Shown here piece by piece: positions 2,609 through 15,474 of a stretch of 50,291 nucleotides of DNA; positions within the stretch are counted from its first letter, which is position 1; every line of letters begins with the position of its first letter. A program made the position numbers and the translations under genes. This DNA comes from Candidatus Methanomethylophilaceae archaeon (GTDB lineage Archaea > Thermoplasmatota > Thermoplasmata > Methanomassiliicoccales > Methanomethylophilaceae). Under the pieces are notes generated by a model. It worked only from the letters and a program-made list of their open reading frames with translations. It did not search any database and was not told where the DNA came from. The stretch spans positions 1 to 50,291 of the forward strand of contig CALUHQ010000041.1 in NCBI GenBank assembly GCA_944320485.1. The letters are read 5' to 3'.

Positions 2609-5113
2609 ATGACGGCTGGTGGCGACAACATCATTCCCTTGAAGCTATGGGGCAAGAAATCTGATTGCGAGTCGTCAGTCCATCTTCTCGAATACCACAT
2701 GGTCGATTCTGCATCAATATGTGCAGAGATTCTGAAAAAGGACCAAAGACTCCTGAAAACTATTGCAAGCGCACTGGGTGTCGAATGCAATGTGGCACTC
2801 CAATCCGTGAGATTTCTTACAGCTCTTCATGATATAGGAAAAGTAAGCAATTTGTTTCAATACCAGAACCAGGAGGGCAGAAGCTACCGTCATGATCTGA
2901 TGGGTTATGTGCTCCTCACCTCTGATGGATTTGAAAACAGGATCGTACAGTATCTCATAGGTCAGGAGAGGGGCACCACACGTCGTATCCGTAGATCAAT
3001 ACGTGATCTCATCAGAGCATCGACCATGCACCATGGTTCACCCTCTGGTTGGAACCGCCATGAATCCGAATTCTTTCTGATGTTCAGAGAACAGGGTGAA
3101 ATCGCTGATGCCTCCATAGTGATTGAGCATCTCTCCAACCTCTATCCTCTGGATTCATATCTGTCATCAGAGGCTTTGGAATCCGAAGAGTACAGGTCGG
3201 TCACCTCGTTGATAGCAGGTTTGATCTCATTGTCGGACTGGATTGCCTCGGATGAATCCATATATCCATGGAAGGGGGATGCGATAAGCCTCCTCGAATA
3301 TCGCAATGATTCCGAGAATATCGCCAGGAGGATCATAGGGGACGATGTGCTTGGCATATTTCTGTCGCAGATGCCAGGCAGTATGGATTACCGTGGCATA
3401 TTCGACTTCGAGCTCAGCCCCATCCAGATGTTGATGGCCGAATCAGAATCCGGTTGTGCGATGATGGCAATAGTGGAGGATGCGACTGGAAGCGGCAAGA
3501 CGGAAGCCTCTCTGATATGGGCATCCAGGAGCATGTCCTCTCATAATTGTGATGGGATGACATATGCCCTTCCGACAAGAGCCACGTCAAACATGATGTT
3601 CACGCGGTTGGAGTCTATCAAAGGTACATTGTTCGGCAACAGATGCAGCACGTCGCTCATCCACGGATCATCGAAGTACTTTCTGGAATCGCAAGGAGTA
3701 TCGGATGTTCGCGGGTGGTATTCGGAAGGGAGCAACAAATCCATGTTTGCCAACATATCGGTATGCACCGTGGATCAGGCGATTCAGGCCATCCTGCCAG
3801 TTCGCTATGAACCTTTGAAGCTGCTCTCACTGTCCAGGCATGTCCTTGTCATCGACGAGGTGCATTCGTTCGATGCCTACACGTTCAACCTGATATGCGG
3901 ATTGGTATCGGCTTGCAGACTGTATTCGATCCCGGTGATGTTGCTCTCGGCGACACTCCCGTCCATGATGAGGAGGCGGTTGTTGTCGTCTTACAATGTT
4001 CCGGTCAGGGACCTTTCGGATAGCTACCCGCTGGTCACGATATGCGATACGGAAGGTTACAGGGAGGTGTCTTGCGAACCATCTCATCGGAGCGAACGTG
4101 TCGTGCACGTGAGATACACCTCGGACGAGGGGTCGATGTTGCAGGAGATACTGGATCTCTCGAAGGCCGGTTTCAGGATAGGTGTGATTAGGAACACGGT
4201 GGACAGCGCAATAGAAACGTATGATGCGCTTCAGGATCGTGCCGACGTCCCTGTCATCCTGATCCATTCGAGATTCACCGTGGCAGACAGGACGAGAATC
4301 GAGAACACCGTCATGGACAGTTGCGGGAAGGATGCACACATCGAAACAGGTCTGATCGTCGTAGGCACTCAGGTGATAGAGCAATCCATGGACATATCAT
4401 TCGACAGGTTGTTCTCCGACCTCTCCCCGATGGACTCGGTAATCCAACGCATGGGCCGTATGCAGAGATTCGGTGCAAGAGGACTCAGTCCAGAAGTCGT
4501 CATCTTCGGACCGCCCTTCACCGACAATCCCTCTCCAGATTGGTATTCGGACAGATTTCCAAAGGCTTCGTTCGTTTATCGCAATCACTACTCCTTATGG
4601 AAGACGGCAGAACTGTTGCTGGATCGTGATGTCCGGATACCCGGGGATTACAGGGGCCTGGTGGAAAGTGCATACTCTTCACCACGGGAGGGCAGTCCGT
4701 TCCATGAGAACTACATGAAGTTCGTAAACGAATCCATGGGGTCTGAATCAAGCTCATCCAATATCATGCTGAACCTGAAACAGAGTTATGGATTCGAGTC
4801 AGAGATGTTCGGCAAAACGGGGTGGGATGACTGCACCATCCCTGCAACACGCGAGGATGATGGTAGAACTGAGACGTATATGCTCACTGTGGAGGCAGAT
4901 GGACATCTCGTCCCGCTTTCAGGGCTTCCCGAGACGAGTGTAATACGTCTCCGCAGGGACAAGTGCGACGAATCCGTGGACAATCCGTTCGGCAGAAGAT
5001 GGACCCATGTCAAAGCCGTGGTTCTGCACGAGACGTCCTCAGAGACGTTCAAAGGTTTTAGTAATAGTAAACATATATTGTACGACAACACGAGGGGGGC
5101 AAGATATGTATAA
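2609..5113 (+). CDS. cas3: CRISPR-associated helicase/nuclease Cas3 (type I-E)
   Basis: This 834-residue protein is the effector that unwinds and degrades target DNA after Cascade binding. The N-terminal HD nuclease shows H30, the H74-D75 pair in LTALHDIGK, H95 and H141-H142 in TMHHGS. The SF2 helicase follows, with Walker A TGSGKT near residue 295, DEVH near 417, SATLPS as motif III, and QRMGRMQRFG as motif VI. Length and domain order are normal for a fused HD-helicase Cas3. A GAGGAG Shine-Dalgarno-like run precedes the ATG. It is the first gene of the cas operon, and its end overlaps cas8e by 8 nt. All key residues seem intact, so it is likely active. Confidence 0.95.
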   Translation: MTAGGDNIIPLKLWGKKSDCESSVHLLEYHMVDSASICAEILKKDQRLLKTIASALGVECNVALQSVRFLTALHDIGKVSNLFQYQNQEGRSYRHDLMGYVLLTSDGFENRIVQYLIGQERGTTRRIRRSIRDLIRASTMHHGSPSGWNRHESEFFLMFREQGEIADASIVIEHLSNLYPLDSYLSSEALESEEYRSVTSLIAGLISLSDWIASDESIYPWKGDAISLLEYRNDSENIARRIIGDDVLGIFLSQMPGSMDYRGIFDFELSPIQMLMAESESGCAMMAIVEDATGSGKTEASLIWASRSMSSHNCDGMTYALPTRATSNMMFTRLESIKGTLFGNRCSTSLIHGSSKYFLESQGVSDVRGWYSEGSNKSMFANISVCTVDQAIQAILPVRYEPLKLLSLSRHVLVIDEVHSFDAYTFNLICGLVSACRLYSIPVMLLSATLPSMMRRRLLSSYNVPVRDLSDSYPLVTICDTEGYREVSCEPSHRSERVVHVRYTSDEGSMLQEILDLSKAGFRIGVIRNTVDSAIETYDALQDRADVPVILIHSRFTVADRTRIENTVMDSCGKDAHIETGLIVVGTQVIEQSMDISFDRLFSDLSPMDSVIQRMGRMQRFGARGLSPEVVIFGPPFTDNPSPDWYSDRFPKASFVYRNHYSLWKTAELLLDRDVRIPGDYRGLVESAYSSPREGSPFHENYMKFVNESMGSESSSSNIMLNLKQSYGFESEMFGKTGWDDCTIPATREDDGRTETYMLTVEADGHLVPLSGLPETSVIRLRRDKCDESVDNPFGRRWTHVKAVVLHETSSETFKGFSNSKHILYDNTRGARYV

Positions 5114-6584
5114 TCTGATCGAGGAGCGCTGGATTCCAGCTGTAACAGACGAAGGCGGCGTCGTATACATATCGCCATGGGAAATCAGCAGGTCGGATAT
5201 CGCGTTGATCGACCTTGCGTTCGAGAGACCGGACTTCAACTCGGCGGTATATCAGTTCCTGGTGGGACTGTATCAGACGATATACACCCCGAAGGACGAT
5301 GATGAATGGTTGGATCGTCTGGAGGGGCCTCCGGATGCCGATGAGATGCATGAGCTCATGGCTCCCATTGAAGACAAGTTCGAGCTTCTGGGGGATTGGC
5401 CACGCTATATGCAGGATGCCTCGGTTTCGTCTGCACCCAACAAGGGGATAGTGGGATTGCTGATAACCAATCCGGGTGAGAACACGATGAAGTTGGGGAA
5501 GGACTTCTTCATCAAGGGACGGAGCGGCGGGGCCCTCTGTCTTTCCTGTTCATCGGCTGCCCTGACGGCAATGCAGGCGATTGCCCCTATGGGAGGTGCA
5601 GGACTCAGAGCATCGGCACGTGGATCATCCGCCATCACCGCATTAATCCGTGGGAAGACCCTGTGGCAGAACGTGTATCTGAACGTCCTGACATCGGAAC
5701 GTTTGAAACGCACCGGAGGCCAGGACCCCTCTGCCAATCCCTTTGTCTGGGCCAATGGTCACTGCGCTGGTCCTGTCCATCCGCAGGACAACAGCCCTCT
5801 TGCGATCATATGGTCGATGGTGCGCAGGATAATGTTGGACGAACCATCGCCTGGAACATGTTCTGTATGCGGTCGGGAATGTGAATGCATCTACTCATTC
5901 AAAGAGATGAACAAGGGGAACGAGTATCCGTCCTGGATACATCCTCTGTCCCCGACGTATGTTACCAAGGACGGAAGAACCCTGCATAAGCTGATGAGCC
6001 GGGATCTGAGCCATTTCCATCAATGGTCGGCCCTCGTATATCATGGACAGGATTTCGCGCGCCCGTCCCTCAACGCATCCCAGATGTCTGATAACAAGAA
6101 TGACCTGTCCGACATCCTCCATTCCGAGCCAAGGCTCTGGATCAACGGATATCAAAACAAGCAGGCACTTCCCGAGTGCTGGGTGGATGTCATGGTACCC
6201 GTCTACACCGGTTACGGTGATGAGGGCGCATTCGATCTGTACGTCCGTGATCTGATCAGGTTGTCGAAGAAGACAGAGAGAAGCATGCTCGATGCTCTGA
6301 AGAAGACGTTAGGTGACGCGGTCGACAAGAGTTCGATCTCCTCCAACTTCTGGTCGGCATGCGATTCCGCATTCATCATCGCGGTGTCTCAATATTCGCC
6401 GGAGGAGCTGGATCAGATCATCGAGAATTGGATTGTCAAGATGCGTGAGGTCGCGTTCAGAGTATTCGACGAGGTAACAGAGACAGTTCCATTGGAGGAT
6501 TACGGCAAAGCGGTGATGGAGAGGTCGAATCTTTCCAGACAGTTGTCCAAGAGATCCATGATGAAGGAGTTGAGCAAGGAATGA
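5106..6584 (+). CDS. casA: Cascade large subunit Cas8e (Cse1/CasA)
   Basis: The large subunit of type I-E Cascade, which recognises the PAM, starts R-loop formation and recruits Cas3. It starts MYNLIEERWIPAV, the hallmark N-terminus of Cse1 proteins (NLI/L..WIPV). I chose the ATG at 5106, inside the end of cas3, because this motif begins there and a GGGGGG run precedes it; an upstream in-frame ATG at 5007 would add 33 unrelated residues. The product has 492 residues, close to the usual 500. CSVCGRECECIY near residue 258 looks like part of a zinc-binding cluster. The stop overlaps the start of cse2 (ATGA). Confidence 0.93.
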   Translation: MYNLIEERWIPAVTDEGGVVYISPWEISRSDIALIDLAFERPDFNSAVYQFLVGLYQTIYTPKDDDEWLDRLEGPPDADEMHELMAPIEDKFELLGDWPRYMQDASVSSAPNKGIVGLLITNPGENTMKLGKDFFIKGRSGGALCLSCSSAALTAMQAIAPMGGAGLRASARGSSAITALIRGKTLWQNVYLNVLTSERLKRTGGQDPSANPFVWANGHCAGPVHPQDNSPLAIIWSMVRRIMLDEPSPGTCSVCGRECECIYSFKEMNKGNEYPSWIHPLSPTYVTKDGRTLHKLMSRDLSHFHQWSALVYHGQDFARPSLNASQMSDNKNDLSDILHSEPRLWINGYQNKQALPECWVDVMVPVYTGYGDEGAFDLYVRDLIRLSKKTERSMLDALKKTLGDAVDKSSISSNFWSACDSAFIIAVSQYSPEELDQIIENWIVKMREVAFRVFDEVTETVPLEDYGKAVMERSNLSRQLSKRSMMKELSKE

Positions 6585-7060
6585 ACAACGAGGCCAAATT
6601 CGAAGAAGAGGTCTACAGGTGGTGGCTATCGCTTCAGAGGGATCCCGGTGAACGTGCCAGGATGAGACGCCAGGCTGACACTCTGGGGATCATGATGAAC
6701 GAGGGGTTCTACGATCTCGTGGCCAGGGTGCCATACGTCATGCGGGATGACCTGGCCTGCATAGCCATGGCGTTGTGCCATGTGGATGCAGACCGTAAGG
6801 ATTCAGTTCCAAGGATGATGGGCCGCAAGAACAGTCAATCCGAGCACACTGTGTCGGAACTGAGGTTCCGCCGCATCATAGAGTCAGATTCGGAGGAGGC
6901 GGTGAGGCAGCTGATCAGGGTCCTTCCCATGATCGGATCGGAGGGGAACGTCCGTGACATCGCCATAACATTCCGCTTCTGGAACAGTGACAGCAAGATC
7001 TCTCAGAAGAGATGGATCGAAGAATACTACCTTTCAAACAACAAGTCTAAGGAAGAGTGA
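6581..7060 (+). CDS. casB: Cascade small subunit Cse2 (CasB/Cas11e)
   Basis: A 159-residue, mostly alpha-helical protein in the position and size of Cse2. The signature YRWWLSLQRDPGERARMRR near the N-terminus is typical (family pattern: ..WW..L..d.g..A.LRR). Two copies normally form the belly of Cascade and stabilise the R-loop. The start overlaps the cas8e stop by 4 nt (ATGA), and the stop overlaps the cas7 start by one base, so translational coupling is likely. Confidence 0.9.
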   Translation: MNNEAKFEEEVYRWWLSLQRDPGERARMRRQADTLGIMMNEGFYDLVARVPYVMRDDLACIAMALCHVDADRKDSVPRMMGRKNSQSEHTVSELRFRRIIESDSEEAVRQLIRVLPMIGSEGNVRDIAITFRFWNSDSKISQKRWIEEYYLSNNKSKEE

Positions 7061-8169
7061 TGAAGATGAAATATGTACAGATACACGAACTGATATCGTA
7101 TCCCGCCTCCAATCTCAACAGGGATGACCTGCAGAGACCGAAAACCGTCAGAATGGGGGACTCCACCAGATTGAGGATATCATCGCAGAGTCTCAAGAGA
7201 GCCTGGAGGGTCAGCGATGTGATGCACGAAGCGTTCCCGGAGATGGGGATTCGCACCAACAAGCTGTCCGAGTACATCCAGGAGGCTCTGGAGAAGGGGA
7301 TGACCCTAAAGGAACTCATCTCCGGAGGTACGGCTGTCACCAGGCAGACTGTGGACAGGAAGATCGCCAAAGAGTACGGGATATCGATAGACGACCGTTT
7401 CCGCAGTCAGAAGGCATCTGCCGACGACGATTCGGACGATTCCGACGACAAGAAGGGAAAGAAGAAGGAGAAGAAGAAACAGCTTCTCCATTACTCACCG
7501 GCAGAGCTGGACCGTGTCGACGAGCTCATGGCCCGGATCTCCCAGGGGGAGAAGCCTGAGGTACCGGATATGCTCTCAGAGAGCGATTTCCCCGTGGACA
7601 TTGCAATGTTCGGGAGGATGGTGGCCAACGATGCCAGGTTCAACTGCGAGGCGGCCGTCCAGGTGGCCCATGCCTTCACCGTCCACAAAGGCGTCGTCGA
7701 GGATGATTTCTTCACCGCGGTCGACGACCTCTCCGGCGACGACGATCAGGGAGCCGGCCATCTGTCCGAGCTGGGATTCGGTGCGGGACTGTTCTACATG
7801 TACATCTGTGTGGATTTCGAACTCCTGACGAAGAATCTCGGATCGGAGGAGCTTGCAAGGAAGGCACTCCTGAAGCTGATCGAGACCTCTGCAACCGTAA
7901 GTCCGACAGGGAAGCAGAACACCTTCGCTTCCCGCGCATACGCGTCCTACATCCTCGTCGAGAAGGGAGACAGGCAGCCGAGGTCCTTGTCCTCGGCCTT
8001 CCTCAAACCCATCAGGGGCGACGACATGCTGAAGGAGGCCATAGACAGCATCAGGAGGACAGAGTCCAACATGAACTCCGTTTTCGGGATGTGCTATGAC
8101 GACAGCTACGAGATGGACGTATCGACCGGGACCGGGTCGTTCGAGGGCCTGGCTTCATTCCTCCAATGA
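7060..8169 (+). CDS. casC: Cascade backbone subunit Cas7e (Cse4/CasC)
   Basis: This protein forms the helical backbone that holds the crRNA spacer. It starts MKMKYVQIHELISYPASNLNRDD, the classic Cas7e start (..h.L.s.p.s.lNrDd.g.pK). RISSQSLKRAWR follows at about residues 45-56. TGKQNTFAS late in the protein is also a family motif. The ATG at 7060 fits the TGATG overlap with cse2; a GTG at 7057 is the alternative. Odd feature: residues about 117-142 form a strongly charged insert of Asp/Ser followed by Lys/Glu (bases about 7409-7485), probably a flexible loop on the thumb or fingers. The product has 369 residues. Confidence 0.93.
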   Translation: MKMKYVQIHELISYPASNLNRDDLQRPKTVRMGDSTRLRISSQSLKRAWRVSDVMHEAFPEMGIRTNKLSEYIQEALEKGMTLKELISGGTAVTRQTVDRKIAKEYGISIDDRFRSQKASADDDSDDSDDKKGKKKEKKKQLLHYSPAELDRVDELMARISQGEKPEVPDMLSESDFPVDIAMFGRMVANDARFNCEAAVQVAHAFTVHKGVVEDDFFTAVDDLSGDDDQGAGHLSELGFGAGLFYMYICVDFELLTKNLGSEELARKALLKLIETSATVSPTGKQNTFASRAYASYILVEKGDRQPRSLSSAFLKPIRGDDMLKEAIDSIRRTESNMNSVFGMCYDDSYEMDVSTGTGSFEGLASFLQ

Positions 8170-8178
8170 GTTGGTCCC

Positions 8179-8913
8179 ATGAGATGTCTGGTGTTCCACG
8201 TCAGTGGGGCCATGGAGAGCTGGGGAAACGCGTTCATGGGCTCCTACAGGACCAGTGACATGCATCCCACGAAATCAGCAATCGTGGGGATCATGTCCGC
8301 CGCCCTGGGGATCGACCGCGAAGATGTGGATTCGCAGGGCCGGCTGTTCCGGGACTACGAGTACGTCGTCGCCTGTGCGGATGGTGCGACCAAGGTTGTG
8401 GACTACCATACGGTTGGGACGGCCCCCGTCCCCAACAGGACAGAGGTGATAAGGGGCGGATACAGGAGGAACGAACTCCTCCGTGAGAAGCAGAACACCA
8501 TACTGTCCGAAAGGGAGTATGTGTGCAACGGGTACTACACGATCTTCGTGATCCCGATCCACGAGAACGATGAGAATCTGGAAACGTTCAAAACGGCTCT
8601 GGAGAGACCACGTTTCACAGTGTACCTGGGAAGGAAGTCATGCCCTCTGTCGTTCCCCATGTGTCCCGAGGTACTGCACTTCGACCGTCTGTACGACCTG
8701 GTGGTGGAGAAGGCACTGAATCCATTCCTCAGACCGGAGTTCGAGGATGCCTCGTATCTCGGAAAGCACAACGGCATGAGGATCTACTCGACTTTCGATG
8801 TCGACGGTTTCGATCCCGTGTCCGTCAGCAGACGTTACGACGATGACGCCGATCATGTGAAATGGCAGTTCGACGGGAGGCTCGAGTACGAGTATGTGGC
8901 GGTGAGGCAGTGA
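8179..8913 (+). CDS. casD: Cascade subunit Cas5e (CasD)
   Basis: This subunit caps the 5' handle of the crRNA in Cascade. The 244-residue RAMP protein begins MRCLVFHVSGAMESWG, matching the Cas5e start (..L.f.L.gp..SWG). RTSDMHPTKSAIVGIMSAALGI, the next conserved block, follows at about residues 28-49. DYHTVG near residue 75 and LSEREYVCN near 113 are also typical. It starts 9 nt after cas7 and its stop overlaps the GTG start of cas6e. Confidence 0.92.
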   Translation: MRCLVFHVSGAMESWGNAFMGSYRTSDMHPTKSAIVGIMSAALGIDREDVDSQGRLFRDYEYVVACADGATKVVDYHTVGTAPVPNRTEVIRGGYRRNELLREKQNTILSEREYVCNGYYTIFVIPIHENDENLETFKTALERPRFTVYLGRKSCPLSFPMCPEVLHFDRLYDLVVEKALNPFLRPEFEDASYLGKHNGMRIYSTFDVDGFDPVSVSRRYDDDADHVKWQFDGRLEYEYVAVRQ

Positions 8914-9572
8914 CGCACTACTTCAGCAGGATGACGATCACCCGCAAGGGCATCGAGGACATAGGCGCGAGGATGGCCAAGGGAGCATACCCCGTTCACA
9001 AGGAGGTATGGTCCATGTTCCCAGACAATCCCGAAGGTTCCAGGGATTACGTGTACTGCATGATGGACGGCTGCAGGACGATCTACTGTGTGTCGGCACG
9101 TGAACCGAGGTGCGATACGGGGAACTGGATGGTAGAGGTGAAGAGGTACGAGCCCATCATCCACGACGGTGACATCTACAGGTTCTACACATGCGTGAAT
9201 CCCACGGTGGCCAATGACAACACTGGCAAGCATCAGCGTCACGATGTCGTCATGGACCTCAAACGGAAGATGCGCGAGTCCGGGGAACCTGTCGACATGA
9301 GGGCGATCATCCAGGGATCCGTGACGGAGTGGTTCGTCAGAAAGGGGGCTCTGAATGGTTTCGAGCCGGTGGAGGGTCCCGAGCTGGAGATCTCAGCCTA
9401 CAGGCGCAACGAGTCCTACAAGGCCGGTGTCCAGAAGATAACGTTCTCCACGGTCGTCGTGGAGGGGTATCTCAGAGTCACGGATCCTGAGGCATTCGAG
9501 AGAGCCCTGTACAACGGCATCGGATCGGCCAAGGGATTCGGCTGTGGCATGCTGATGATAAAGCGTCCATGA
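8910..9572 (+). CDS. casE: crRNA endoribonuclease Cas6e (Cse3/CasE)
   Basis: This enzyme cuts pre-crRNA at the base of each repeat hairpin and stays bound to the 3' handle. I chose the GTG at 8910 (GTGA overlap with cas5e) because the family starts with a short strand like VTHYFSRM; an upstream in-frame ATG at 8862 would add residues that are only a shadow of cas5e. The likely catalytic His is H30 in YPVHKEVWSMFPDN, matching the conserved aH..lW.lFpd motif. The C-terminal glycine-rich loop GIGSAKGFGCGMLMIKR is present. The product has 220 residues. The stop overlaps the cas1 start (ATGA). Confidence 0.93.
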   Translation: MTHYFSRMTITRKGIEDIGARMAKGAYPVHKEVWSMFPDNPEGSRDYVYCMMDGCRTIYCVSAREPRCDTGNWMVEVKRYEPIIHDGDIYRFYTCVNPTVANDNTGKHQRHDVVMDLKRKMRESGEPVDMRAIIQGSVTEWFVRKGALNGFEPVEGPELEISAYRRNESYKAGVQKITFSTVVVEGYLRVTDPEAFERALYNGIGSAKGFGCGMLMIKRP

Positions 9573-10573
9573 TCCCGATACGCACATGTGTGGTTCCGTT
9601 GAAGGACAGGAGCACGTACATTTCGGTCGAGTACGGGATCCTGGATGTCCAGGACGGTGCATTCGTCCTCAGGGATGTCAACGGTGTCAGGACCACCATA
9701 CCAGTGGCAGGTCTGGCATGCATAATGCTCGGTCCCGGCACCACCATCACTCATGCGGCGGTGTCCCTGGCTGCCGATGTGCGCTGTCTCCTCATCTGGA
9801 CAGGCGAGGGTGGCATCCGCCTGTATTCTGCAGGGATGCCGGGCGGAAGCAGATGCGACAGGCTTCTGAACCAGGCGCGGGCAGCCCTCATACCGGAATG
9901 CCGTCTGGAGGTGATACGTCGGATGTACCAGTACAGGTTCGAGGAGAGCCTGGACCCGGGGTTGAGCGTGGAGCAGATGCGCGGGAAGGAGGCCGCGAGG
10001 GTGAAGCGGATCTATGCCGAGCTTTCACGCGAATACGGAGTCGAATGGAACGGCAGGAGGTACGATGCTGCGAATTGGAGAAGCGCCGATCCAATCAACA
10101 GATGCATCAGCTCCGCAACATCCTGTCTGTATGGTCTCTCGGAAGCAGCGATCCTCATCGCAGGTTACTCTCCGGCCATCGGATTCGTGCATACCGGCAG
10201 ACCCAGGTCGTTCGTTTACGACGTTGCGGACCTGATCAAATACGAGACTGCTGTCCCTGTGGCATTCAAGGTGGCATCGGAGCAGAGGGAGGATTTCGAG
10301 ACGCATGTCCGTCATGAATGCAGGGACATGTTCGCACGCAGACATACGCTGGAATCCCTGGTCCCGTTGATCAATTCGATATTCTCCGGATTGGAGGCCG
10401 ATGATGTCGATGGGGTTGTCCCGAGTCCAGATTTCTCATCCGACGAGGGCAGATGCTATGATGGTTCTGATTATCGAGAACGCTCCGAACCGTCTCAGGG
10501 GGAGGTTGTCGCTATGGATGTTCGAATTGAAACCCGGGGTGTACCTGGTGGATTGCAACTCCAGGCTTCGTGA
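9569..10573 (+). CDS. cas1: CRISPR integrase Cas1 (type I-E)
   Basis: With Cas2 this protein inserts new spacers at the array. The conserved Cas1e blocks are present: RGKEAARVKRIY with the metal-binding Glu, WNGRRYD, the SPAIGFVHTG block with the catalytic His, and FVYDVADLIKYE with the Asp residues. The frame is 334 residues long, about 30 longer than usual. The last 38 codons (from 10458) overlap cas2 in another frame and read as low-similarity, charged sequence, so the natural end probably lay near 10460 and its stop has been lost or shifted. The overlap of 116 nt is much longer than at the other cas junctions. Confidence 0.92.
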   Translation: MIPIRTCVVPLKDRSTYISVEYGILDVQDGAFVLRDVNGVRTTIPVAGLACIMLGPGTTITHAAVSLAADVRCLLIWTGEGGIRLYSAGMPGGSRCDRLLNQARAALIPECRLEVIRRMYQYRFEESLDPGLSVEQMRGKEAARVKRIYAELSREYGVEWNGRRYDAANWRSADPINRCISSATSCLYGLSEAAILIAGYSPAIGFVHTGRPRSFVYDVADLIKYETAVPVAFKVASEQREDFETHVRHECRDMFARRHTLESLVPLINSIFSGLEADDVDGVVPSPDFSSDEGRCYDGSDYRERSEPSQGEVVAMDVRIETRGVPGGLQLQAS

Positions 10574-10736
10574 ATGGATATGGGAAACAGTATGTCAGAA
10601 CATCGGCAAAGGTTCAGCGATGATGGCATGGTCGACCAGCAGGAAGGAGTTCGGATTCGACATCAGAGCGATAGGGGATACGAAGAGGATCGTTTCGAAC
10701 ATCGATGGAATCAAAATGCTGTCGAAAATAGATTAA
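10458..10736 (+). CDS. cas2: CRISPR adaptation protein Cas2 (type I-E)
   Basis: A 92-residue Cas2e. The start MMVLIIENAPNRLRGRLSLW and the following ELKPGVYLVDCNSR are diagnostic of the I-E Cas2 family. I placed the start at the ATG-ATG pair at 10458/10461; an upstream in-frame ATG at 10401 would add residues that shadow cas1. The protein forms the dimer bridging two Cas1 dimers during spacer capture. Its stop codon lies inside a small inverted repeat only 26 bases before the first CRISPR repeat. Confidence 0.92.
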   Translation: MMVLIIENAPNRLRGRLSLWMFELKPGVYLVDCNSRLREWIWETVCQNIGKGSAMMAWSTSRKEFGFDIRAIGDTKRIVSNIDGIKMLSKID

Positions 10737-10762
10737 GTTTAATCTTCTATATAACTAAGATA
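10731..10762 (+). promoter_or_regulatory. Very short CRISPR leader between cas2 and the array
   Basis: Only 26 bases separate the cas2 stop from the first repeat. They include an inverted repeat, GATTAA (10731-10736) with TTAATC (10739-10744), and a TATA-like CTATATAAC at about 10746-10754. The conserved repeats begin here and the degenerate ones lie at the far end, so this is the leader side. No long AT-rich leader is present. Confidence 0.6.
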
Positions 10763-13110
10763 GAGTTCCCCACGCATGTGGGGATGAACCGTCCAAGAGC
10801 TTCACCTATACAACCTCTCAACAGAGTTCCCCACGCATGTGGGGATGAACCGGTCATAGGTTTCAGAGACCTTAACAGTAACCAGAGTTCCCCACGCATG
10901 TGGGGATGAACCGATGGGTATCGTTGGTATTCATACCCCCATTGGGAGTTCCCCACGCATGTGGGGATGAACCGAACCCCGCAGGAGCCAAGCGCATCAA
11001 GCGGGCGAGTTCCCCACGCATGTGGGGATGAACCGAGTAGCACGATTAAGACCGCTCATAAGGAAACGAGTTCCCCACGCATGTGGGGATGAACCGAAGA
11101 TCGGGGTCGGATGGATCAACGTCAACATGAGTTCCCCACGCATGTGGGGATGAACCGAACGTGGTCCGTGTCGTCGTCGGTCCTGTATGGAGTTCCCCAC
11201 GCATGTGGGGATGAACCGGTTTCAGTCACCCACGACGGAGACCTGTGCGTGAGTTCCCCACGCATGTGGGGATGAACCGGAACCGTCCCATTTCCACTCT
11301 ATGCTCGTGGAGAGTTCCCCACGCATGTGGGGATGAACCGGACTGTCCGAAAATCGAGGAACTGAAAGGGTCGAGTTCCCCACGCATGTGGGGATGAACC
11401 GAGAACGCATGAGGAAACGGAGACACTGCCGGAGAGTTCCCCACGCATGTGGGGATGAACCGAGTCCCGGTCCTCTATGGAAAAGGTAAGTATAGAGTTC
11501 CCCACGCATGTGGGGATGAACCGGACATCATCGCAGGAGACGCAGAGAGGGTGTTGAGTTCCCCACGCATGTGGGGATGAACCGATTTCTGTGAGGATCG
11601 TCAAGGAGACGACCGAGAGTTCCCCACGCATGTGGGGATGAACCGGACATTCACGGAGTCGCGCGAGATGAGGCGTGGAGTTCCCCACGCATGTGGGGAT
11701 GAACCGATGAGGATAGGGAAAGGTGAATGAGATGAGGTGAGTTCCCCACGCATGTGGGGATGAACCGTACGGAGGACTCAGCCAGCTCAAGGACCCGCAG
11801 AGTTCCCCACGCATGTGGGGATGAACCGTGGATTGATGCAACTGTGTGGATACCCGAATGGAGTTCCCCACGCATGTGGGGATGAACCGATTCAACGATG
11901 GACACTGCGCTTTCGATTCTCGAGTTCCCCACGCATGTGGGGATGAACTGACAGCGAGGACACCGATGACGATGGCCATGATGAGTTCCCCACGCATGTG
12001 GGGATGAACCGGAATCCCACAGACCCAGAACGAAGCTCTTCACGAGTTCCCCACGCATGTGGGGATGAACCGGCTATTCTTCATAACCAACGCTGCCGGA
12101 TCCAGAGTTCCCCACGCATGTGGGGATGAACCGTGAATTAAGCACCACAAACCATTTCCCCTCCATGAGTTCCCCACGCATGTGGGGATGAACCGGAGCC
12201 TCTGTCCACCATCTGACGGAACCCATCGAGTTCACAACGCATGTGGGGATGAACAGTACATATTCCATGATTGGAAAGCCGAAGACTAGAGTTCCCCACG
12301 CATGTGGGGATGAACCGAAGGGATATCGAATTCGATAAGTTCACGTCGAGAGTTCCCCACGCATGTGGGGATGAACCGGAAGCACTGCGAACAGCTCATC
12401 TATATGTTCGGAGTTCCCCACGCATGTGGGGATGAACCGACCGCACCTGTGGCCAATCTGACCTACCCCTCGAGTTCCCCACGCATGTGGGGATGAACCG
12501 TTGCTCATGTTCCCGGCGTTGTCCACCTTGGAGAGTTCCCCACGCATGTGGGGATGAACCGGTCATCGCCACATACTCCAGCGACGCCGTGACGAGTTCC
12601 CCACGCATGTGGGGATGAACCGCCAGTGACAATGTGAGCCTTGTCGGTGCTGGTAGAGTTCCCCACGCATGTGGGGATGAACCGAAGCTGACCGACGCCG
12701 TTGCCGACATCCAGAGGAGTTCCCCACGCATGTGGGGATGAACCGACCTTATGAAAATGCGGTCCGTGTGAACCTCAGAGTTCCCCACGCATGTGGGGAT
12801 GAACCGGTCGAGCCGTTCACGTTCCAGGCAAGCACGGCGAGTTCCCCACGCATGTGGGGATGAACCGTCATCCTTCCCGTCCGTGACGACGATGGATATG
12901 AGTTCCCCACGCATGTGGGGATGAACCGTACCGCGTCAAGGCAGCCAGCGAGTCCGACGCGAGTTCCCCACGCATGTGGGGATGAACCGATCGTCGACCG
13001 GAACGGAACGGCTGTGATCGAGAGTTCCCCACGCATGTGGGGATGAACCGCCCCTCGGCGACAGATCGGCGTGAGGTTCTCGAGTTCTCCACGCATGTGG
13101 GGATGAACCG
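10763..13110 (+). CRISPR. Type I-E CRISPR array, 39 repeats and 38 spacers
   Basis: A 29-bp repeat that begins GAGTTCCCC and ends GGGGATGAACCG recurs every 61 bases from 10763. The palindromic CCCCACGCATGTGGGG core forms the Cas6e hairpin, and the sequence is close to the bacterial I-E repeat class. I located 39 copies by position. Spacers are 32 bp, except 33 bp before the repeats at 12167 and 12656 and 31 bp before 13082. Most copies are identical; the copy at 11922 has one change (ACTG end), the one at 12228 has several, and the last, at 13082, has one. The array is transcribed away from cas2 on the plus strand. No two spacers looked alike by eye. Confidence 0.98.
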
Positions 13111-13142
13111 AAGGCACATGAGCACGCGGTCGCTGCCATGAG

Positions 13143-13411
13143 GAGTTCCCTACATACATGGGGATGAAACGTCCACTTCGTACCTCACGTCTCTCCAATA
13201 CCTGAGTTCCCCACACACGTGGGGGTCGAACAGATTATAAGAGAGCCTCATGGTTAGTGGAAGCGTTGAGGCCATAGTCGTGTTGAGATAATCATAACAG
13301 AACCAGTCGATTCATGATTGCAAGTTCCCCACATACGTGGGGATGAACCGCTACTGTTCTCGGAGAGCAATATGCCGAGGACAAGTTCCCCATTATTATG
13401 GGGTGTGTTGA
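13143..13411 (+). repeat. Decaying trailer end of the CRISPR array
   Basis: Repeat-like units continue past the last good copy at 13143, 13204, 13322 and 13383, with increasing mismatches; a further eroded one may sit near 13266. Spacing stays near 61 bp or a multiple of it. Such decay is expected at the leader-distal, oldest end. It confirms that the cas2 side is where new spacers enter. Confidence 0.8.
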
Positions 13412-13590
13412 TTCTCATCGATCGTCAATTGACTGAAACTTCGTCTTGGACATAGATGTGAAATTTAGAGCCTATCTAAGATCTGAATCATGGATTTCTG
13501 GTTCGAATCAACCATCTGTCAGAACGACATGATTATGCTAGATAATCGTCCCAGTCGTGATTACATATCAGTTCGAAGATGAAGGTGCAG

Positions 13591-15474
13591 ATGATAATCT
13601 ACAGCTCCACCAAGTCCGATTTCATCGACGACATAGTAAACGGCGTTCTGGACGAGAAGCTGGAATCGCTGATGATGAGTCGTTTCGGCCGCGGGACCCC
13701 CGAATCCGAACTGCGTGCATGGCGCAACTCTCTCACGTACATGGGCAACATCATCGGGTCGTCATCGATCCCTGCGGATGCGGGCATCGCCATCGAGTAC
13801 GGCATACCCTACACGTCAAAGCGTGTAGACCTCATAGTCACGGGTCTGAACGAGTCCGGACACAACGCCGCGGTCATAGTGGAGCTGAAGCAGTGGTCGT
13901 CCGCCGAGGCCGTTCCCGGGAAGGACGGGGTGGTCCGCACCGTCGTGGGCGGAGGAATTCACGAGGTGGCACATCCATCGTACCAGGCCTGGTCCTATGC
14001 CGAGGCGATCGAGGACTTCAACGAGGACGTCCGTGAGATGGGAGTCGTCTTGTCCCCCTGTGCCTGCCTCCACAACTACGTCCCCGAGGTGCCTGACCCA
14101 CTCTGCTCCGACATCTACTCGGAGTATCTGGGGCTGGCCCCCATGTTCACCAAGCACCAGGGATCCGACCTCCGCGGCTTCCTGGAGAGGTTCATAAGGA
14201 AGGGCGATGGCGGAGAGACGATATTCATCCTCGACCGCGGGCGTCTCAAACCCTCCAAATCTCTCCAGGACGTCCTGTCGTCCATGATGGAGGGGAACCA
14301 GGAGTTTGTCCTCCTTGACACCCAGAAAGTGGTCCACGAGGACATCCTGCATCAGGCGAGGGCCATAGCCAGGGGAGGGGACAAGAGGGTGCTCGTGGTC
14401 AGAGGCGGCCCCGGCACCGGCAAGTCCGTCCTCGCGGTCAACCTGTTGTCGGAGATCACCTCGATGGGGATGTCGGCCCTGTACGTGTCCAAGAACTCCG
14501 CCCCCAGGAACGTCTACGGGCAGAGGCTCAAGGGTGCCAAGAGGGGACGCAGCAGGGTCGACAAGCTGTTCGTCGGTTCCGGGAAGTTCGTGGATGCGGT
14601 TCCGGACGCGTTCGACGTCCTCCTCGCGGATGAGGCGCACAGGCTCAACGAGAGGAGCGGGCTGTACCAGAACCTGGGCGAGAACCAGGTGATGGAGATC
14701 ATACGCGCAGCGAAGCTGTCGGTCTTCTTCATCGACGAGGACCAGAGGGTCACCCTCAAGGACATAGGTACCGTGGACGAGATCAGAAGGTACGCGAAGA
14801 TGTTCGGCGCACCGGTGACCGAGATGGAGCTGGACTCCCAGTTCCGCTGCTCGGGGTCCGACGGATACATGTCATGGCTGGACAACATCCTCCAGATCCA
14901 CGAGACGGCGAATCTCGACTTCGACGATGGGGTCGGGGGGTTCGATTTCAGGGTGTACGACGATCCGAACGAGCTGCGGGCGGCCATCGAGGAGAGGAAC
15001 GAGGGCAACAACAGGTCGAGGCTGGTCGCAGGATACTGCTGGGACTGGATATCCAAGGGGAAGGACGACACCGACGTCCACGACGTGACCATCCCCGGGA
15101 CGGGTTTCGGCATGAGCTGGAACCTGAGCAACACGGGCACCTGGGCCATAGATGAGGGGTCCATCAACGAAATCGGATGCATACACACCTGCCAGGGGCT
15201 GGAGTTCGACTACGTGGGCGTGATAATCGGTGACGATATGCGCTACTCCGACGGGGCCGTCGTGACGGATGCTTCCAAGAGGGCGAGGACGGACCAATCA
15301 CTGCGGGGTCTGAAGAGCTCCTATCCCGATCCGGATGAGGCGTACACGGTCGCGGACAGGATCATAAAGAACACTTACAAGGTTCTCATGACCCGCGGGA
15401 TGAAGGGTTGCTACGTCTACTGCACAGATCCCGGGATGGCGGAGCATCTCAGGAAAGGTATGCAGTCCAGATGA
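13591..15474 (+). CDS. DUF2075-type nuclease-helicase (PD-(D/E)XK plus SF1-like ATPase)
   Basis: About 627 residues. The N-terminal third holds a PD-(D/E)XK-like pattern, RVDLIVTG followed by AVIVELKQWSS (Asp ... Glu-x-Lys). Walker A GGPGTGKS lies near residue 271, Walker B-like VLLADEAHR near 346, and the helicase-like SQFRCSGSDGY, IHTCQGLEFDYVGVI and KVLMTRGMKGCYVYC follow, as in the DUF2075/Schlafen group 3-like helicase family. I prefer the ATG at 13591 because the family starts MIIY..TK..F; the ATG at 13579 adds four residues. It lies next to the CRISPR array in the same direction but with its own 180-bp upstream gap. A role in nucleic-acid defence or repair is an inference from the fold and location. 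Confidence 0.85.
   Translation: MIIYSSTKSDFIDDIVNGVLDEKLESLMMSRFGRGTPESELRAWRNSLTYMGNIIGSSSIPADAGIAIEYGIPYTSKRVDLIVTGLNESGHNAAVIVELKQWSSAEAVPGKDGVVRTVVGGGIHEVAHPSYQAWSYAEAIEDFNEDVREMGVVLSPCACLHNYVPEVPDPLCSDIYSEYLGLAPMFTKHQGSDLRGFLERFIRKGDGGETIFILDRGRLKPSKSLQDVLSSMMEGNQEFVLLDTQKVVHEDILHQARAIARGGDKRVLVVRGGPGTGKSVLAVNLLSEITSMGMSALYVSKNSAPRNVYGQRLKGAKRGRSRVDKLFVGSGKFVDAVPDAFDVLLADEAHRLNERSGLYQNLGENQVMEIIRAAKLSVFFIDEDQRVTLKDIGTVDEIRRYAKMFGAPVTEMELDSQFRCSGSDGYMSWLDNILQIHETANLDFDDGVGGFDFRVYDDPNELRAAIEERNEGNNRSRLVAGYCWDWISKGKDDTDVHDVTIPGTGFGMSWNLSNTGTWAIDEGSINEIGCIHTCQGLEFDYVGVIIGDDMRYSDGAVVTDASKRARTDQSLRGLKSSYPDPDEAYTVADRIIKNTYKVLMTRGMKGCYVYCTDPGMAEHLRKGMQSR

Follow-up and report, generated by a model that had tools for sequence, protein, structure and literature searches.

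In the 50,291-nucleotide stretch of a Candidatus Methanomethylophilaceae genome analysed here (the window), the type I-E CRISPR array starts 26 bases after the cas2 stop codon, and these 26 bases may constitute a complete, very compact leader: a core of 19 bp beside the repeat, in which a CTTCTATA box occupies -19 to -12 and the junction reads A-pyrimidine-A, would direct Cas1-Cas2 to the first repeat without IHF, an explanation that we hold with about even confidence. Cas1-Cas2 would either read the core directly or find the repeat through a host factor bound to the box, new spacers would be inserted at the cas2 end, and pre-crRNA would be supplied by read-through from the cas operon, by a weak BRE/TATA promoter over the cas2 stop, or by both. 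This compact, IHF-independent leader ranks above the explanation of the box as a promoter element, which ranks above any other cause of its conservation. A role of the core in guiding integration is suggested by its position, by the polarity of the array, and by the low promoter score of the box; counting against it is that the box holds a TATA-like string, as promoters do.

The cas operon and the array occupy the + strand of the window and form a complete type I-E locus, an assignment made in a preliminary description of this DNA and borne out by a family model search, in which all eight cas products match I-E or Cas families. The features of the locus are:

2609..9572, + strand: cas3, cse1, cse2, cas7, cas5 and cas6e (Cas family matches), of which cas3 occupies 2609-5113
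9569..10573, + strand: cas1e (TIGR03638; open reading frame and family match), its open frame sharing 116 bases with cas2e
10458..10736, + strand: cas2e (Cas_Cas2CT1978, TIGR01873; family match)
10724..10739, + strand: candidate BRE/TATA promoter GAAAATAGATTAAGTT, overlapping the cas2 stop (7.1 bits with the tRNA matrix; weak)
10731..10744, no strand: inverted repeat GATTAAGTTTAATC spanning the cas2 stop (of a kind common in the window; relatives lack it)
10737..10762, + strand: putative compact leader, the entire gap of 26 bases between the cas2e stop and repeat 1 (from the sequence)
10744..10751, + strand: CTTCTATA box, -19 to -12 from the repeat (found there in four of four A1 loci, defined by their GAGTTCCCC repeats)
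10748..10754, + strand: TATA-like string TATATAA, belonging to the conserved box (scores poorly as a promoter)
10760..10762, + strand: leader-repeat junction, ATA here and ACA in three relatives (both As, at -3 and -1, invariant)
10763..13350, + strand: type I-E array with 42 repeats of 29 bp still recognisable, those at the far end degenerate (repeat search)

The cas2e stop is a TAA at 10734-10736 and the first repeat begins at 10763, which leaves 26 bases, the distance given in the preliminary description. The genome (1.7 Mb, 88% complete) contains two partial matches to methyl-coenzyme M reductase alpha, on two contigs and each below the cut-off, and a TBP gene, which is present in all four A1 genomes; together these mark the organism as a methanogenic archaeon, and they suggest the family Methanomethylophilaceae of the order Methanomassiliicoccales. 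The open frames of cas1 and cas2 overlap by 116 bases in the window (10458-10573), by 17 in L011 and by 221 in L013, and the cas1 tail beyond a shared motif resembles out-of-frame cas2, so that loss of a stop, or a sequence error, is possible.

The leader end of the array is the cas2 side, as indicated by the distribution of degenerate repeats. Repeat 1 is 29 bp long (GAGTTCCCCACGCATGTGGGGATGAACCG), and the repeats follow mostly at a 61-bp period; the first 19 are perfect, numbers 20 and 39 have one mismatch each, number 25 has three, and the last three (at 13143, 13204 and 13322) have six, seven and four. An arrangement with the leader beyond the last repeat and a trailer on the cas2 side would place the three most degenerate repeats at the leader end and the 19 perfect ones at the trailer; it is extremely unlikely and was rejected on these grounds. 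Past the last counted repeat, at 13382-13410, is another repeat-like hairpin (CCCCATTATTATGGGG), more decayed still. With a repeat-spacer-repeat query, all 39 matches in the 1.7-Mb, 88% complete genome fall in the array of the window, so that no second array with the same repeat was found there. The array may be active, but no protospacers were found for it. Parts of 22-23 bases from spacers 1-3 have no exact match in viral contigs, and a comparison of the whole array with phage records returned two, a Salmonella record and a Saccharomonospora phage (68% and 73% identity). The leader pattern does not occur in the viral contigs (0 matches), and no Cas1 relative was confirmed in them.

The length of the gap was compared among archaeal and bacterial I-E loci. 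Matches to Cas2e were found in 16 of 147 genomes of the order (15 above the cut-off), and a draw of 389 genomes from the phylum gave nine, two of them new, for a total of 18 loci, of which 16 were measurable; L016, whose contig stops within cas2, and L024, which has no array in the 957 bases available, were dropped, a separate contig scan with Cas2 gave one locus (L027, a 12-residue match) that was not used, and the L014 gap of 51 was measured although the first repeat is partly masked. Four A1 loci in all were present in the genomes searched, with gaps of 26 bases in the window, 23 in genome G079 (L011), 32 in G097 (L013) and 20 in G037 (L045). The A2 group (TRTTCCCC repeats) has gaps of 51, 51, 31 and 20, G159 and G362 have gaps of 27 and 28, and the B group (TCCCC repeats ending in ATCC) has gaps of 55, 66, 63, 78, 66 and 215, the last at a locus with an extended Cas2. 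The bacterial sample consisted of 19 plasmid records, taken from the 60 Cas1 matches listed of 182, and E. coli K-12; 18 of the 20 were measurable, after removal of L039 (without an annotated cas2) and L042 (no array within 1003 bases). Its gaps are 105 in E. coli K-12, 77 in Photobacterium, 78 in Haematobacter, 71 in Ideonella, 106 in Azospirillum, 74 in Acetobacter, 95 in Frigidibacter, 49 in both Roseomonas and Acidiphilium, 60 in Sphingomonas, 58 in Proteus, 60 and 70 in two Thermus records, 44, 67 and 79 in Streptomyces, 488 in S. angustmyceticus, and 33 in Variovorax (L043), which is close to 32 and belongs to a locus with cas1 in two pieces. Gaps of 32 bases or fewer thus occur in 8 of the 16 measured archaeal I-E loci of the phylum versus 0 of the 18 measured bacterial loci, and the gap of the window is short, yet not unique. 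A rank test of the A1 loci and G159 against nine proteobacterial loci (leaving out Proteus, Sphingomonas and Variovorax) gives p = 0.0017, with the reservation that related loci are not independent draws.

Conservation in the A1 loci is phased to the repeat. CTTCTATA stands at exactly -19 to -12 in all four, with gaps of 20-32 bases in the relatives, while its distance from the cas2 stop ranges from 1 to 13 bases; the phase is therefore kept to the repeat. Among the four loci, 10 of the 19 columns nearest the repeat are invariant versus 4 of 41 between -60 and -20; at the third codon positions of cas2, pairwise identity is 27-52%, with 4 of 49 invariant across all four. By our own arithmetic, for which this yardstick is small, a run of eight invariant columns at a single phase would arise by chance with a probability of the order of 1e-8; in the window, CTTCTATA occurs once, with 0.27 occurrences expected in shuffles. 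Selection on a core of about 19 bp is strongly indicated by these alignments, and the earlier impression that the array has almost no leader gives way to a block that adjoins the repeat in every A1 locus. It had also been proposed that the leader signals might lie within cas2: the few invariant columns from -60 to -20 reveal no conserved signal there, and that proposal may hold for transcription only, through the candidate promoter over the stop. A short conserved sequence at the leader-repeat junction, as in type II-A systems, is present; the A at -1 of repeat 1 is also found before the next two repeats. The A2 loci have an AT-rich TTTAWAAAT-like box beside the repeat, centred near -6 in four of four, compared with 8 of 91 third positions invariant.

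The box could have been kept for some other reason, as a regulator site or an RNA element of the 3' end of cas2, with the repeat alone giving integration its specificity. According to the part of the source available, Cas1-Cas2/DEDDh of Megasphaera integrates at all repeats in vitro without leader specificity (PMC10284694), which implies that a site in the leader need not be read by Cas1-Cas2 itself; the phasing of the box to the repeat rather than to the cas2 stop better suits an element that acts on the repeat, and we regard this explanation as quite improbable. The inverted repeat that the preliminary description placed over the cas2 stop is real (10731-10744), but an alignment read by eye shows it to be absent from the three relatives, and perfect inverted repeats with 6-bp arms and loops of 0-4 number 175 in the window (about 3.5 per kb); as a regulatory site it was rejected, being common and not conserved.

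Whether the box is instead the TATA element of an array promoter was judged by a matrix built from 30 of the 35 tRNA gene matches of one genome, from which the promoters of protein genes could differ. Upstream of these 30 tRNA genes, the TATA columns lie about -33 to -26 from the mature RNA and an A-rich BRE near -38 to -36, and the leave-one-out scores have a median of 10.6 bits, a lower quartile of 8.7 and a minimum of 0.2. The gap does contain a TATA-like box, as first noticed, and the same spacing of 33-26 bases would place its RNA start near position 14-20 of the repeat, as had been anticipated from the TATA spacing. If the box were a promoter element, RNA would start within repeat 1, repeat 1 would be processed unusually, and the short leader would be mainly a promoter. 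In keeping with this, the box contains TATA and is conserved in four of four A1 loci; in the excerpt available, the I-E array of Streptomyces avermitilis has a predicted -10 box overlapping its repeat 1 (PMC4762764), so that an RNA start in or close to the first repeat has a proposed precedent; and a strong site, of 13.1 bits, adjoins the repeat in the A2 locus L017. However, the best scores around the A1 box are 3.5 bits in the window, 4.5 in L011, 0.5 in L013 and 6.2 in G037, below the tRNA lower quartile, and the BRE position is occupied by a conserved CTTC instead of A-rich bases. Measured against the genome's own tRNA promoters, the conserved box is predicted to be a poor promoter, and a promoter function as its main role appears unlikely.

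Pre-crRNA may begin elsewhere. The candidate promoter at 10724-10739, which scores better than the box though still weakly, has a predicted RNA start near the leader-repeat junction, and transcription from this position would keep repeat 1 whole or nearly so. Of the 16 leaders, 7 have a site of at least 6.5 bits that begins between -46 and -36, a window and a cut-off picked after the scores were known; 0 of 300 dinucleotide shuffles reach that number (mean 1.8), and 39 shifted windows average 0.49 such sites, with a largest count of 3. A second window, -67 to -57, is somewhat enriched too (5 of 16 leaders, a count reached by 7 of 300 dinucleotide shuffles). Among the A1 loci, only the window and L011 have a site of at least 6.5 bits at -46 to -36 (two of four). 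No terminator-like site was found on the + strand between 9500 and the array, so that, for leaders with no visible promoter, read-through from the cas operon would be the simplest source of pre-crRNA. As a separate matter, the TTTAWAAAT-like box of the A2 loci (L014, L015, L017 and L018) would, at tRNA-like spacing, start RNA around repeat positions 21-24. The Cas6e cut is expected close to these positions by comparison with E. coli, and the first A2 crRNA could carry its handle from the start. As a promoter, L017 alone scores well, the other A2 boxes reaching 7.6 (L014), 0.1 (L015) and -0.8 bits (L018).

The preliminary description attributed a lack of IHF to archaea, and the genomes agree: HU/IHF (PF00216) was not detected in the 88% complete genome of the window by a search that finds it in 9 of 14 control genomes, nor in 15 of the 16 other I-E-carrying genomes, a set of 17 outside which G037 lies. 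The one exception, G159, has an HU-family protein and nevertheless a gap of 27 bases, whereas the B group has no HU detected, yet longer gaps of 55-78; the short gap is not strictly tied to the absence of HU/IHF. Replacement of IHF by a known archaeal DNA bender was rejected on the counts of MC1 (0 of 18 genomes), histone (0 of 18) and Alba (3 of 18, none of them A1), in a set in which several I-E genomes are incomplete (the A1 genomes being 88, 87, 68 and 99% complete). These absences agree with published work, the accessible portions of which state that Methanomethylophilaceae encode no known nucleoid-associated proteins, with candidate new ones published for Methanomassiliicoccales (PMC7613761), and that Methanomassiliicoccales are without eukaryotic-like histones and HTa (PMC4153887).

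The integrase itself belongs with the E. coli-like, IHF-type enzymes, for which gaps of 49-106 bases were measured. Among solved structures, Cas1 is best matched by entries for the E. coli protein, and the E. coli stretch that was compared is 54% identical. A 31-row Cas1 tree places A1 in a 12-row clade with proteobacteria and G159 (support 100/99), separate both from A2 and from the B group, the latter grouping with actinobacterial rows. The E. coli layout, as given in an excerpt, comprises a Cas1-Cas2 site at -1 to -4, IHF at -9 to -35, and an upstream site at -50 to -55 that the IHF bend brings onto Cas1-Cas2 (PMC10011333). A leader with sites out to -55 cannot fit into 26 bases, and the departure from a standard leader that was noted at the outset is thus upheld as far as the excerpted layout extends. 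The bases at -50 to -55 lie inside cas2 and are not conserved, with one of six columns invariant among the four A1 loci; a scan for the IHF consensus does not discriminate, the leader of E. coli itself having 2 mismatches and the A1 leaders 2-3. One bolder possibility is that TBP replaces IHF: it would bind and bend the TATA-containing box, which keeps its phase at 12-19 bp upstream of the repeat, as well as the TTTAWAAAT-like box near -6 in A2, and so direct Cas1-Cas2 to repeat 1 in an archaeal family without a known DNA-bending chromatin protein. We consider it very unlikely; if true, it would tie spacer acquisition to the transcription machinery.

Known systems share parts of this arrangement. 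The type I-E system of E. coli K-12 is of the same subtype, with a closely related Cas1, a GAGTTCCCC... repeat and spacer entry expected on the cas2 side in both, but its 105-base gap holds IHF and upstream sites by the excerpted account (PMC10011333), whereas for the window the gap is 26 bases, IHF was not detected and the conserved box is another one. In the available text on type II-A streptococci, a leader-anchoring sequence of about 10 bp beside the repeat suffices without IHF (PMC6895254); the window likewise has a short conserved sequence adjoining the repeat, with no IHF detected, but the system type is unrelated and conservation among the A1 loci extends to -19. The type I-A system of Sulfolobus is archaeal, without IHF and with host factors suspected, like that of the window, but the excerpt describes a requirement for at least 400 bp of leader and for host factors (PMC5815122), versus about 20 bp here. 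In S. avermitilis the predicted element overlapping repeat 1 is a bacterial -10 box (PMC4762764, in the part seen), and other Streptomyces Cas1 rows lie in another branch of the tree than A1. Archaeal leaders are said in the same excerpted account of Sulfolobus to be longer than bacterial ones, which lack of an IHF-like bender could partly explain (PMC5815122); the A1 loci run against that view.

According to the portion of a published account available, no factor other than IHF is known to be needed in I-E and I-F (PMC9456107), and the locus bears on how Cas1-Cas2 could locate repeat 1 without it. Here a Cas1 that shares about 54% identity with E. coli Cas1 stands beside a leader of about 20 bp, in a genome with no detected IHF, histone, Alba or MC1; the best-studied integrase would thereby be available in a minimal form that is free of IHF and can be tested. 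Among the open-licence papers listed, as judged by titles and the beginnings of abstracts, no description of such short archaeal I-E leaders was found. Leader motifs were reportedly surveyed in 2021 by Santiago-Frangos and colleagues.

Several loci differ in other respects. The leaders of G159, G362 and the B group (L028, L029, L019, L021, L023 and others) end in TTTAGT or similar, resembling the TTTAGA at the end of the E. coli leader, unlike the A1 leaders. The Cas2e proteins of L022 and L024 have C-terminal extensions of about 130-180 residues with no Pfam domain besides Cas2 above the cut-off, possibly diverged nuclease fusions. Just past the array of the window, a 631-residue protein (13579-15474) has a Schlafen group 3 helicase domain (PF09848) and is a possible further defence gene. 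In G037 (L045), cas1 and cas2 look fused by a deletion, the Cas1 match covering residues 9-109 only and being followed by the C-terminal half of Cas2; the array and the phased box persist despite this apparent deletion, given which the leader of G037 may be idle.
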